Shown here: positions 1,043-8,107 of the stretch, in pieces
Layout of the letters: every line of letters starts with the position of its first letter
Position numbering within the stretch: the stretch's first letter is position 1
Virus record (IMG/VR): IMGVR_UViG_3300024518_001460
Span: 1-25,492 of that record
DNA: 25,492 nucleotides
Strand: one strand, 5' to 3'
DNA from: a virus
Made by a program: the position numbers and the translations under genes
The notes under the pieces: model-generated
Seen by the model: only the letters and a program-made list of their open reading frames with translations
The model's database searches: none
Told to the model about the DNA's origin: nothing

Positions 1043-1050
1043 ACAATTGA
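1036..1050. promoter_or_regulatory. Candidate operator (inverted repeat between divergent promoters)
   Basis: TCAATAGACAATTGA is an inverted repeat with 5-base perfect arms (TCAAT/ATTGA) and a 5-base centre. It overlaps the -35 of the rightward promoter and lies beside the weak -35 of the leftward one, where a Cro/CI-like protein would block both. A second short palindrome, AACCCGTT, lies at 1022-1029. Binding by the adjacent repressor is inferred. Confidence 0.45.
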
Positions 1051-1075
1051 CTTTTATTTCTGCCGCCCTTATATT
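1047..1075 (+). promoter_or_regulatory. Rightward sigma70-type promoter for the repressor gene
   Basis: TTGACT (1047-1052) and TATATT (1070-1075) are separated by exactly 17 bases, one mismatch each from consensus. The expected transcription start is about 1082, one base before the ATG at 1083, so the first gene would be read from a leaderless mRNA. Confidence 0.7.
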
Positions 1076-1743: not shown

Positions 1744-1913
1744 AAATCCTGATCACCAAAGGCGACGGGCTGAAGGGCAAGACTGCCGATGCCGAATTGG
1801 TATGGGAGGACCTGCCAGGCTGCCGCGCTGAAATGTGGGAGTTTGAGCTAACCGGAATCGGCTACCTATGGCCGAAAGATTGGGCGCGAGCCTGGGAGGA
1901 AAACGATGGCTGA
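1740..1913 (+). CDS. Hypothetical protein (57 aa)
   Basis: A 57-codon gene between rusA and the DnaA-like gene. It starts in an ATGA overlap with the RusA stop and overlaps the next gene by 8 bases. The peptide begins MKILITKGDGLKGKTADAEL and contains five tryptophans, with an acidic WEDLPG turn and a C-terminal DWARAWEE helix. This is unlike random reading in GC-rich DNA. I do not recognise a family. The tight overlaps on both sides and the absence of any other frame covering this interval support it as a real gene. Function unknown. Confidence 0.75.
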   Translation: MKILITKGDGLKGKTADAELVWEDLPGCRAEMWEFELTGIGYLWPKDWARAWEENDG

Positions 1914-2319
1914 GACATATAGATTTCCAAAGGGTGTTGAGGTTGGCTTGTCCGACACTAAAATCGCGCAGGCCGCCGAGATAGGGCGGCGGATCGCGGA
2001 ACAACGTCTTGCGCCGCTGAGGGTGAAAACCGGGATCATTCTAGCCATTGTGGAGGCGGCATTCGAGCTGCCCGACGGGGCAATTAAAAGCAAAACCCGG
2101 ACATACAAGACTGTCCGCCCACGCCAGATTGCCTATTGGCTGGCCCGCGAAACTCTAGGGTATTCATTTCCCCGCATCGCCCTTTGCCTGGATCGGCACC
2201 ACTCGTCCGTCATGCAGGGCATTAAAACATTGGAAAAACACATGGAAATCGACCGCTGTCTGCGCGAAACATGCGAGGAATTGCGCAGTGCGGTGCTCGC
2301 CTTGATAGAGGACGAATGA
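1906..2319 (+). CDS. DnaA domain IV-like DNA-binding protein (137 aa)
   Basis: The C-terminal half (about 70-112: RPRQIAYWLARETLGYS, then FPRIALCLDRHHSSVMQGIK) matches the helix-turn-helix of DnaA domain IV, whose signature in bacterial DnaA is RDHTTV followed by a basic helix. Here the signature reads RHHSSVMQGIKTLE. There is no AAA+ ATPase domain, so the protein can bind DNA but cannot form the ATP-driven initiator filament. The N-terminal 65 residues are helical with no clear motif. Such proteins occur in phage early regions and could mark the phage origin, recruit the host helicase machinery or compete with host DnaA. The first codons overlap the previous gene by 8 bases. Confidence 0.85.
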   Translation: MAETYRFPKGVEVGLSDTKIAQAAEIGRRIAEQRLAPLRVKTGIILAIVEAAFELPDGAIKSKTRTYKTVRPRQIAYWLARETLGYSFPRIALCLDRHHSSVMQGIKTLEKHMEIDRCLRETCEELRSAVLALIEDE

Positions 2320-3209: not shown

Positions 3210-3469
3210 AAATCTATACGCCGCTAACGGCATCGCTTGTCCCGCTTTATCCGGTCACTTGTCCGGTATGCGACGCAGCCATTGGCGCCCTCTACCGTCA
3301 CGGCCTATCACTTAGGCCACATGTGCAGGAGTGTACCAAGCGGTGCGATCAGCTTTGGAGGTTTGGTTATGGCAGGGCGCATTGGCGCGCTCTGCCGGCC
3401 GACCTGCGACAAATACAGCTAGCAGCGGGGATGTTGGATTATGAATCTAGACAAATTGGGACTTCATAG
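3206..3469 (+). CDS. Small CxxC-containing hypothetical protein (87 aa)
   Basis: The protein begins MKIYTPLTASLVPLYPVTCP and carries CPVC followed by H32, H39, C43 and C47 (RHGLSLRPHVQECTKRC). This could make a small zinc-binding knuckle. The C-terminal half (HWRALPADLRQIQLAAGML) is helical. No family is recognised. It starts in an ATGA overlap with the upstream gene and overlaps the next gene by 29 bases. The long overlap is unusual here, but both reading frames have credible protein sequence, so I keep both. Confidence 0.65.
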   Translation: MKIYTPLTASLVPLYPVTCPVCDAAIGALYRHGLSLRPHVQECTKRCDQLWRFGYGRAHWRALPADLRQIQLAAGMLDYESRQIGTS

Positions 3470-4358
3470 CCACGTCCTGCCAGCCTTGAACAGGCTGGCA
3501 GATGATGAATATGGCACTCGCAATCCGTCAGATGTGATTTACAACGCTTTATCGGCCACTGTTTTTGACTGCCGCAATATAGATATTCAGTTTATGCGTG
3601 ATACAGGTCAGGCAGCAATGGAGGAAATGGAGGCGCTAAAGCAGAAAGTTCGTCTGCCGTTTCCTGTTTGCTGGTTTGAGTTTGGCGGCGAAACCGCGGT
3701 CCTGGCCAGCGAGACGCACATCTATATACCTAATGATTTACAAGCAGATCTAGACGAACACCCAGCGGGAGACCCGGACGTAATCGTCGTTGAAATACTG
3801 GAATTTAGCGGCTGGTCCCAACCAAGCGACTATTTGGGCGATTGGGATTCAGACGGCCCGGTTGGTGATTTTTCAAACGGCTTCGACATGACCTATGATC
3901 CAAGCGGTGAACGAGAGGACGGGCCGCCGTTCTTCGAGGTTATTAATGGCGACAGTGACGACCTTCCGCTTGAAATGGGCGCGGAACATATCATCGGCGC
4001 GCTGACGCTACTCAACGAAAAGTTGGTATCCGCCATTATCGTGCCTGATCCAGCGGTACAACTAAGCCGCGCCAGAGCAAGGCGCGGGCGACTTCCGGTA
4101 TCGTCCGAGCGGAGGATCTTGCAAATCAATGCCCCAGCCATTCTGCGGGCCGTTAATCGGACGGGCGGAAGCCACGCCTCGCCCCGTCTGCACTGGCGGC
4201 GCGGCCATTGGCGAACGTATGGCAGAGGACGGGACGCCGAGCGCCAAACATGGATCAATCGCTGTTTGGCGGGCAATCCAGATATTGGAATGATCAGCAA
4301 GGATTACCGGCTTATATGGCAACTGCCAATGCTTGACCAAGCCGCCCAGGACAAGTAA
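3441..4358 (+). CDS. Conserved phage hypothetical protein (305 aa)
   Basis: Largest early protein of unknown role. The N-terminal two-thirds is acidic (many D/E, for example DYLGDWDSDGPVGDFSNGFD) and looks globular. The last 100 residues contain a conserved-looking segment, GGSHASPRLHWRRGHWRTYG then RCLAGNPDIGMISKDYRL. I recognise this as the C-terminal signature of phage proteins of proteobacteria, in which HxRRGHxR is followed by a VGNPxxGxIxxDY-like tail. The biochemical role is unknown; the basic histidine-rich block would suit nucleic-acid contact. The A/T-leaning codon use of the first half differs a little from its neighbours. The gene ends just before the only long non-coding leader in the early region. 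Confidence 0.8.
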   Translation: MNLDKLGLHSHVLPALNRLADDEYGTRNPSDVIYNALSATVFDCRNIDIQFMRDTGQAAMEEMEALKQKVRLPFPVCWFEFGGETAVLASETHIYIPNDLQADLDEHPAGDPDVIVVEILEFSGWSQPSDYLGDWDSDGPVGDFSNGFDMTYDPSGEREDGPPFFEVINGDSDDLPLEMGAEHIIGALTLLNEKLVSAIIVPDPAVQLSRARARRGRLPVSSERRILQINAPAILRAVNRTGGSHASPRLHWRRGHWRTYGRGRDAERQTWINRCLAGNPDIGMISKDYRLIWQLPMLDQAAQDK

Positions 4359-4453
4359 GATTGCAATCGTGCGCGGCGGGCTTGGTTTGATCCACCTTGC
4401 CCACCGTGATTCCCTCCGGGGGCACCCGCCCGCACGTTTTTAGAGGGAATGCT
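4359..4453 (+). promoter_or_regulatory. Structured leader with two mutually exclusive hairpins before the replication genes
   Basis: This 95-base gap holds three elements. First, a perfect 10-bp palindrome, GATTGCAATC (4359-4368). Second, a long hairpin: 4369-4380 pairs with 4425-4435 over 11 bp with one bulged C, followed by GTTTTTA, as in an intrinsic terminator. Third, ATTCCCTC (4409-4416) pairs perfectly with GAGGGAAT (4443-4450), which contains the Shine-Dalgarno of the next ORF; an inner CGGG-GGCA-CCCG hairpin (4417-4428) would stack on it. The second and third cannot both form as simple nested helices. This is the architecture of an attenuator or a translation switch; the trigger is unknown. 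Confidence 0.55.
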
Positions 4454-4552
4454 ATGTCTAAAAACCCAAGTATTTCTAAGAAAAACCGCGCCATTGTTTG
4501 CGAAAGATACGATGGGCATTGGGGGAATTATGGCGAGGTGGCGCGCCGATGA
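4454..4552 (+). CDS. 32-aa leader ORF coupled to the replication gene
   Basis: ATG at 4454 with GAGGGA 6 bases upstream, and a TGA at 4550-4552 that overlaps the start of the DUF1376 gene (ATGA). The peptide begins MSKNPSISKKNRAIVC and continues ERYDGHWGNYGEVARR. It is basic and has no known domain. Because its ribosome site is one arm of the 4409-4416/4443-4450 helix, translation of this short ORF, and through it of the replication protein, could be switched by the leader RNA. Either a true small protein or a coupling leader peptide is possible. Confidence 0.6.
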   Translation: MSKNPSISKKNRAIVCERYDGHWGNYGEVARR

Positions 4553-5304
4553 ATTTACGCCCCTGGTACAAGAGATACCCGGCCGATTTTATTGCCGGCA
4601 CGCTGGCGCTGACCCTTGAACAAAAGGGCGCCTACAGCATTGTGCTGGATCTCATGTACGACCAGGGCGGGCCTATTCCAGACGATCCAAAATGGATTGC
4701 CAGGGTATGTGGATGCTCTGTCCGCAAGTGGAAAGCCATTCGCCAGATCCTAATAAATCACGGCAAGATTGAGGCCGAAAATGACGTGCTGATTAATTTT
4801 CGCGTCGAAAAAGAAGCCGAAAACAGCGCGAAAGAAGCGCGAAAACTTGCTGAAAATGGTGCGAAAGGTGGTTTAAAACGAGCTGAGAATTTAACCAAAG
4901 TCAATGGAAACAGTCATTTAGCCAAAAAAGGGCTACCAAAAACAGCCAAGCATACTAGAAGCCAGAGTCCAGAGACTAGAAAAGAAAAAGAATACAAAGA
5001 AAAAGAATTTGACGAATTTTGGGCGGCATACCCTCGGAAGGTTGGCAAGGGCCAAGCTCGAAAAGCCTACGCCACGGCATTGAAGACAACCGATGCTGCA
5101 ATTCTACTCACTGCCGTTCAGCGGATCCCGAAACCTGAAGACATGGAATTTTTTCCGCATCCATCAACATGGCTCAATGGCGAGCGCTGGCTGGACGAGA
5201 CCGGGCCGTCAGAGAACGGCGAAGATACCTATGATGACTTCAAGGCGGCTGCAAAAGAACACACTGCTGATCTGCTGCGACAGATGAAGGAAACAATGGA
5301 ATGA
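4549..5304 (+). CDS. DUF1376/YdaU-type phage replication protein (251 aa)
   Basis: The first 85 residues (NLRPWYKRYPADFIAGTLAL, then EQKGAYSIVLDLMYDQGGPI and WIARVCGCSVRKWK) match DUF1376, a winged-helix-like domain at the start of phage replication-initiation proteins. The C terminus (EFDEFWAAYPRKVGKGQARK and FPHPSTWLNGERW) is the typical tail of lambda-O/DnaT-like phage replication proteins that load helicase. A lysine/glutamate-rich linker of about 75 residues joins them. The ATG at 4549 is chosen because it overlaps the upstream stop and begins the conserved domain; the TTG at 4498 only adds shadow sequence. The linker DNA holds an 11-bp repeat array. Confidence 0.88.
   Translation: MNLRPWYKRYPADFIAGTLALTLEQKGAYSIVLDLMYDQGGPIPDDPKWIARVCGCSVRKWKAIRQILINHGKIEAENDVLINFRVEKEAENSAKEARKLAENGAKGGLKRAENLTKVNGNSHLAKKGLPKTAKHTRSQSPETRKEKEYKEKEFDEFWAAYPRKVGKGQARKAYATALKTTDAAILLTAVQRIPKPEDMEFFPHPSTWLNGERWLDETGPSENGEDTYDDFKAAAKEHTADLLRQMKETME
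4815..4913 (+). repeat. Nine-unit 11-bp periodic array, candidate replication origin
   Basis: Cutting the sequence every 11 bases from 4815 aligns the units AGCCGAAAACA, GCGCGAAAGAA, GCGCGAAAACT, TGCTGAAAATG and GTGCGAAAGGT, followed by four weaker units. GAAA occurs at 4819, 4830, 4841, 4852, 4863 and 4907; the register positions 4874, 4885 and 4896 hold TAAA, GAGA and CAAA. A further GAAA at 4807 is offset by one base. The period is not a multiple of three, so a repeated peptide cannot explain it. A purine-rich, A-rich stretch follows to about 5030. Iterons inside a replication gene followed by AT-rich DNA are the layout of the lambda O-gene origin. Confidence 0.5.
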
Positions 5305-6892: not shown

Positions 6893-8107
6893 ATGGCCGC
6901 ACCAAAGCGTAATGCCATGAGGCAGATCGAAACGCGCCGGCTGGAAAGCCTGATTCCCTATGCCAACAACGCCCGGACTCATTCGGACGAGCAGATCGCG
7001 CAGATCGCCGCCAGTATCAAAGAGTTTGGCTGGACCAACCCAGTCCTGGTAGACGGTGATAACGGCATCATAGCGGGCCATGGGCGCGTTCTGGCAGCGG
7101 AACGGCTGGGAATGGACGAGGCGCCTTGCATTGAGCTGGACGGCCTGAGCGAGGCCCAAAGGAAGGCCTACATACTTGCAGACAACCGCCTGGCCCAAAA
7201 CGCCGGCTGGGACAACGATCTACTTCGCATCGAGCTAAACGGCCTCGAGGCCATGGACTTTGATCTAAGCCTGATAGGCTTCGGTGAAGACGACTTGGCC
7301 AACCTGATGAATGATCCGGGCGAGGGGCTCACAGATCCCGACGCTGTCCCGGACATCCCTGAAGACCCGGTAACGCAACTCGGCGACGTGTGGCTGCTCG
7401 GCAAGCACCGCCTGGTATGCGGTGACAGCACAAACGCGGACGACGTGGACGCGGCATTGATAGGGCGTCGTGCTGATGTGTGTTTGACCGATCCGCCGTA
7501 TGGCCTTGGCGAAGGCAAGGAAAGCGGGAAAAATGACTATCATGGCTATGAAGATACAAGAGAAAATTTAGAGGCAATTGCAGCCGATTGGCTTGCGCTG
7601 GCCAGGGCCCACTCGGAGGCTGTTGTTTTTTCGCCTGGGGTGACTAACCAGTGGCTATATCCAGAACCAGACTGGGTGTTTTGTTGGTTCTATGGTGGCG
7701 GCCAGCTTCGATCGTCTTGGGGGTTTAACTGCTGGCAGCCTTTCTTGTGTTATGGAAAAGACCCGTCATTGGCGTCTGGAAACGGCGGAAGGCCAGACGC
7801 TGTTGATATGAACGTGCCAGCAAACGCCAAGGATATTGACCATCCATGTCCTAAGCCGGTCAAGCTGTGGGAGTGGTTGGCAAAACGTCTTGTTTTTAGC
7901 CCTAACGCGGTATTGTTTGAACCGTTCTCGGGGAGCGGCACGACAATTATTGTGGGCGAGATGCGCGGAATATCAGTTGCGGCCATTGAGCTAAGCCCTG
8001 CATACGTAGATGTTGCAGTGCAACGATGGCAGGACTTCACCGGAGCACAAGCAACACTAGAGGCGGACGGAACATTATTCCCGTCTATAAAAGCCAATGC
8101 CGCGTAA
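6893..8107 (+). CDS. ParB-like nuclease/DNA methyltransferase fusion (404 aa)
   Basis: Residues 8-110 are a ParB/Srx-type domain (RLESLIPYANNARTHSDEQI, GHGRVLAAERLG, ADNRLAQNAGWD). Then comes an N6-adenine or N4-cytosine methyltransferase core with DPPY at about 200 (catalytic motif IV) and FSGSGTT at about 345-351 (the S-adenosylmethionine site). The catalytic motif comes first, as in the beta class. Such fusions are common phage proteins thought to methylate phage DNA against host restriction. The core (7621-7920) is 51% GC against 60% for 7141-7440 by hand count, suggesting a swapped module. ATG 6918 (MRQIETRR) is a possible alternative start. It overlaps the next gene by 11 bases. Confidence 0.9.
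   Translation: MAAPKRNAMRQIETRRLESLIPYANNARTHSDEQIAQIAASIKEFGWTNPVLVDGDNGIIAGHGRVLAAERLGMDEAPCIELDGLSEAQRKAYILADNRLAQNAGWDNDLLRIELNGLEAMDFDLSLIGFGEDDLANLMNDPGEGLTDPDAVPDIPEDPVTQLGDVWLLGKHRLVCGDSTNADDVDAALIGRRADVCLTDPPYGLGEGKESGKNDYHGYEDTRENLEAIAADWLALARAHSEAVVFSPGVTNQWLYPEPDWVFCWFYGGGQLRSSWGFNCWQPFLCYGKDPSLASGNGGRPDAVDMNVPANAKDIDHPCPKPVKLWEWLAKRLVFSPNAVLFEPFSGSGTTIIVGEMRGISVAAIELSPAYVDVAVQRWQDFTGAQATLEADGTLFPSIKANAA

Follow-up and report, generated by a model that had tools for sequence, protein, structure and literature searches.

We analysed a stretch of 25,492 bases, an IMG/VR virus record (hereafter, the window), around a leader that lies in a rightward run of genes extending on both sides of it. 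This run comprises a repressor-like ORF preceded by a promoter-like site, rusA, a gene for a small protein with a DnaA C-terminal domain, a Lar-like gene and an ORF of 305 aa, which is followed by the leader hairpin with its U-tract, a putative ORF of 32 aa and a replication gene (Table 1). A terminase-like gene is found 3' of the replication gene, as is a 404-aa protein in which a ParB-like N-terminal domain is fused to a DNA methyltransferase domain (6893-8107). The leader had been described as the only sizeable gap in the early region; this proved incorrect, since a second gap of 76 nt (1311-1386), between the repressor-like ORF and rusA, contains a longer perfect hairpin. The latter (1338-1371) has GC-rich arms of 11 bp (GGCGGGGCGGC and GCCGCCCCGCC) and a 12-nt loop with TTCCTCC, without a T-run, and its position recalls that of a nut- or put-like antitermination site.

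Table 1. Genes, sites and predicted RNA structures of the early region, in window coordinates.
Feature	Coordinates	Strand	Remarks
Promoter-like site	1047-1075	+	Consensus scan, 10/12
Repressor-like ORF			phrog_35; behind promoter-like site 1047-1075
rusA	1387-1743
DnaA C-terminal domain gene	1906-2319		Small protein
Lar-like gene	2525-2953
305-aa ORF	3441-4358	+	Early gene 5' of leader
Promoter-like site TTGACC-17-TAAGAT	4333..4361	+	Consensus scan, 9/12; weak
Helix 1, Y-shaped GC-rich terminator-like hairpin	4368..4436	+	Outer stem 4368-4380/4425-4436
Inner hairpin of helix 1	4398-4409/4415-4424	+
Early alternative hairpin	4372-4381/4399-4408	+	Excludes helix 1; candidate antiterminator
U-tract TTTTT	4437..4441	+	Completes predicted intrinsic terminator
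Helix 2	4409..4450	+	Appears in predicted folds only if the RNA ends near 4453-4460
Perfect hairpin GTTTTTAGA/TCTAAAAAC	4436-4444/4457-4465	+	9 bp, 12-nt loop
Long-range helix with G-U pairs	4404-4416/4521-4533	+	13 bp; takes helix 2 left arm
Ribosome site GAGGG of 32-aa ORF	4443..4447	+
Putative 32-aa ORF, MSKNPSISKKNRAIVCERYDGHWGNYGEVARR	4454..4552	+
Replication/primosomal protein (DUF1376)	4549..5304	+	PF07120 5.7e-21; phrog_9327 7e-50
Terminase-like gene			3' of replication gene

As originally predicted, 4369-4380 (GTGCGCGGCGGG) pairs with 4425-4435 (CCCGCCCGCAC), C4374 being bulged. One more pair, C4368-G4436, extends this stem (helix 1) to 12 bp, and TTTTTA follows directly. We compared the hairpin with shuffled sequences in tests that, here and below, each bear on one feature chosen after viewing the sequence and give uncorrected p-like figures to be read as guides: the fold of 4366-4442 (-38.7 kcal/mol, z -3.73) was equalled by 0 of 200 shuffles, and that of 4359-4436 with its end paired (-38.1) was matched by 2 of 500. 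In addition, helix 1 is the strongest closing structure at any of the 47 T5 runs on the two strands of the window. The combination of helix 1 and T-run is thus beyond chance. On the plus strand, the second-best terminator-like element is GCCGTCTCGCGGC GTTTTTG at 481-500, where it is unclear which strand is coding.

The arrangement is that of an intrinsic terminator, a stable GC-rich stem that ends at a U-tract, and it begins about 10 nt past the stop codon of the 305-aa ORF, a usual place for a terminator, among co-oriented genes (the repressor-like ORF, rusA, the DnaA C-terminal domain gene and the replication gene). Unlike most intrinsic terminators, it has a branched loop region of 44 nt between its outer arms, larger than usual and closed by inner stems, and only five U; it is also absent from a standard short-loop terminator scan (loop of 3-8 nt, which is typical but not obligatory), and these three points count against the assignment. 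On balance, the sequence makes it likely that 4368-4441 is an intrinsic (Rho-independent) terminator within a rightward early operon, predicted to act in vivo by limiting or delaying expression of the replication genes. Polymerases transcribing the early genes would mostly halt at the U-tract; a read-through fraction, or a modified, antiterminated polymerase, would go on to transcribe the 32-aa ORF and the DUF1376 replication gene, whose expression would thereby be limited or delayed, and the read-through RNA would be translated from an ordinary ribosome site. We infer that read-through sets the dose of the replication gene. Since the terminator-like hairpin stands directly 5' of this gene, transcription into it probably needs read-through, antitermination or an unrecognised downstream promoter. 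The promoter-like site at 4333..4361 would start RNA near 4368, on the 5' arm of the hairpin itself; promoter-like sites in the region are as numerous as expected from shuffles, so this one is weak.

Terminators ahead of replication genes have precedents. In the lambda pR operon, tR1 and tR2 lie 5' of O and P. Both terminators belong to the pR replication region (PMC3985674), and mobile elements such as Tn916 silence replication functions through terminators combined with antitermination (PMC11658703). The leader resembles tR1 and tR2 in its place in a rightward early operon, upstream of a replication initiator gene; the likeness is positional only, as neither a nut-like site nor an antiterminator gene was identified here.

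The 32-aa ORF overlaps the replication gene by ATGA at 4549, as had been noted, and this overlap is real because the replication protein start at 4549 agrees with its homologs (MNLRPWYKRYPADF). The ORF itself has neither a family match nor a homolog in our searches, and its codon-position values (0.45/0.48/0.48) show no clear bias, though it is short. The replication gene carries its own ribosome site, GAGGTGG, which forms a duplex of -11.5 kcal/mol with the 16S tail, versus -6.9 kcal/mol for the site of the 32-aa ORF; in one local fold the unpaired probability of the replication gene's site averages 0.63, and in another fold GCGAGG is unpaired. An AT-rich stretch midway through the replication gene contains AAAGAAAAAGAAT twice in identical form, 15 nt apart from start to start (4981-5008); the two copies possibly mark an origin inside the gene, as in lambda O.

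The original prediction proposed a two-state leader in which a second helix, either competing with helix 1 or as a pseudoknot, hides the ribosome site of the 32-aa ORF and so gates the coupled replication gene. The complementarity is there: 4409-4416 (ATTCCCTC), enclosed by helix 1, matches 4443-4450 (GAGGGAAT) perfectly over 8 bp, the right arm includes GAGGG, and this is the longest match of its kind when the 29 gene starts of the window that we examined are compared. Its length is nonetheless marginal, for 35 of 2000 upstream shuffles do as well (about 2%), or 635 of 2000 if G-U pairs are allowed, and matches of this kind of at least 8 bp occur at 48 of 3625 window positions. With an event of about 2% and 29 gene starts examined, one 8-bp case is unsurprising, and the complementarity behind helix 2 is probably fortuitous. 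A role for it as antiterminator is ruled out by the order of transcription: its right arm comes after the U-tract, so a halted polymerase never makes this arm, and helix 2 can act only in RNA already read through.

For an RNA spanning 4359-4453, the states with helix 1 and with helix 2 differ little in energy (-38.7 versus -40.4), but this near-equality arises because the RNA is cut at 4453. When RNAs starting at 4362 were folded without pseudoknots, helix 2 pairing was 0.881 for an end at 4453, 0.438 at 4460, 0.001 at 4465 and 0.000 at 4480, 4520 and 4560; it did not exceed 0.001 for ends at 4465-4480 and 4520-4600, and its maximum past 4465 was 0.018, at 4500. As a pseudoknot, the inner-hairpin loop UUCCC (4410-4414) could possibly pair with GGGAA (4445-4449), a 5-bp duplex predicted at -5.4 kcal/mol before loop costs. 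Pseudoknot-free folding, transcription order, chance and stronger competing pairings all go against the two-state leader; the replication gene's own good ribosome site and the lack of homologs of the 32-aa ORF add to this, and we hold gating by helix 2 to be very unlikely.

A comparable layout is found in the IncI-alpha plasmid ColIb-P9, where a pseudoknot upstream of the repZ ribosome site in repY-repZ is needed for translation and is blocked by antisense RNA (PMC8383071). Both systems couple a short ORF to a replication initiator gene and may involve a pseudoknot, whereas the pairing proposed here would hide the short ORF's own site.

The first reading of the leader had overlooked three pairings that compete with helix 2 (the early alternative hairpin, the 9-bp perfect hairpin and the long-range helix of Table 1). 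The loop of the 9-bp hairpin contains both the ATG of the 32-aa ORF and the GGG of its ribosome site. The window has six distinct perfect hairpins of at least 9 bp, this one included, and its predicted pairing is 0.99 in RNAs ending at 4465-4470 and lower in those ending later. The long-range helix is equalled in 19 of 500 shuffles and 5 of 422 window tiles. By the measure of chance, both are modest events.

The early hairpin is of another kind, as it forms from the 5' arm of the terminator. Prefixes ending at about 4408-4432 fold most stably into this hairpin, which has to open before the terminator can form, over a barrier of about 11 kcal/mol (findpath). If there is a switch at this locus, the early hairpin is a better candidate for it than helix 2. 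In such an attenuator the early hairpin would occupy the terminator 5' arm and let transcription continue, until a factor (an antisense RNA, a protein or a ribosome finishing translation of the 305-aa gene) tipped the RNA to termination directly before the ribosome site of the replication gene. This is how rep leaders of the pT181 and pIP501 type are laid out, with a terminator immediately ahead of the rep ribosome site and an antisense RNA that switches it (PMC8383071, PMC5435934). The leader shares with them a terminator hairpin abutting a ribosome site, here with predicted termination 2 nt before it, and a predicted early hairpin that uses the terminator 5' arm. It differs in that the ribosome site follows the U-tract and lies outside the terminator stem, and in that a 32-aa ORF intervenes, in a phage. 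Furthermore, a consensus scan of 4100-4900 found no minus-strand promoter-like site for an antisense RNA, so only the likeness of layout to pT181-type leaders stands. An early fold as stable arose in 144 of 1000 loop shuffles; its presence is thus no sign of selection, and no homologous leader turned up in the collections searched. An attenuator is unlikely, if less so than gating by helix 2.

We searched for relatives of the leader at several levels. No covariance model of the known RNA families in Rfam, such as riboswitches and leaders, matched at the gathering score or with E values as high as 5; DNA searches of annotated phages, plasmids and the record itself returned only the leader's own sequence, and a pattern scan of IMG/VR for helix 1 returned nothing. 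The same scan for helix 2 followed by ATG returned 34 contigs, none of which had a matching replication gene or leader similarity past the helix, which indicates that such matches arise widely. Neither the replication protein alone nor the 305-aa ORF found relatives as an anchor. An alignment of three replication protein sequences, in contrast, recovered 40 viral loci from IMG/VR and 10 genome loci from a species-level genome set, and the leader is absent upstream of these relatives; it was not found with terminase relatives either. In 38 of the relatives' loci the replication gene mostly overlaps the preceding gene or is within about 11 nt of it, a few having gaps of 73-169 nt, and no terminator-like stem was detected within 250 nt upstream of the replication gene in any of the 38. 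At one of the recovered loci (L171), where the replication proteins share 89% identity across 19 compared residues, a gene similar to the DnaA-like gene of the window directly abuts the replication gene, without a leader. Many of the relatives belong to alphaproteobacteria or their phages, and host conditions may alter folding.

As far as the collections show, the leader would then be specific to this phage lineage. A conserved role is unsupported, given 0 of 38 loci with a stem, and the absence of a leader from the relatives weighs slightly against a regulatory element conserved with the replication module; this absence fits a terminator acquired locally. It could also be argued that nothing here is functional, and that the leader is a GC-rich non-coding remnant beside a degraded gene, the 32-aa ORF being the tail of a lost gene that once overlapped the replication gene. 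In many relatives a full gene indeed runs into the replication gene or stops just short of it, leaving no gap, and the 32-aa ORF lacks homologs and, short as it is, clear codon-position bias. A hairpin with U-tract so well beyond chance in both shuffle tests is difficult to reconcile with this, and we judge a mere remnant even a little less probable than gating by helix 2. Least credible of all would be a lineage-specific dual-control leader, in which the terminator gates transcription while, in read-through RNA, 4404-4416 shifts among three partners (the inner hairpin of the terminator, the 32-aa ORF's ribosome site and a site 5' of the replication ribosome site), tuning the protein dose without antisense RNA.

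The proposal that the leader gates the replication genes survives in part: the terminator-like hairpin lies directly upstream of them, while a two-state switch draws no support from folding, chance or the relatives. As terminators ahead of replication genes are already well known, this one teaches little of general import. A working terminator would mark the point at which an uncultured phage restrains its replication genes, and it would help both the annotation of this phage and the search for its antitermination system.
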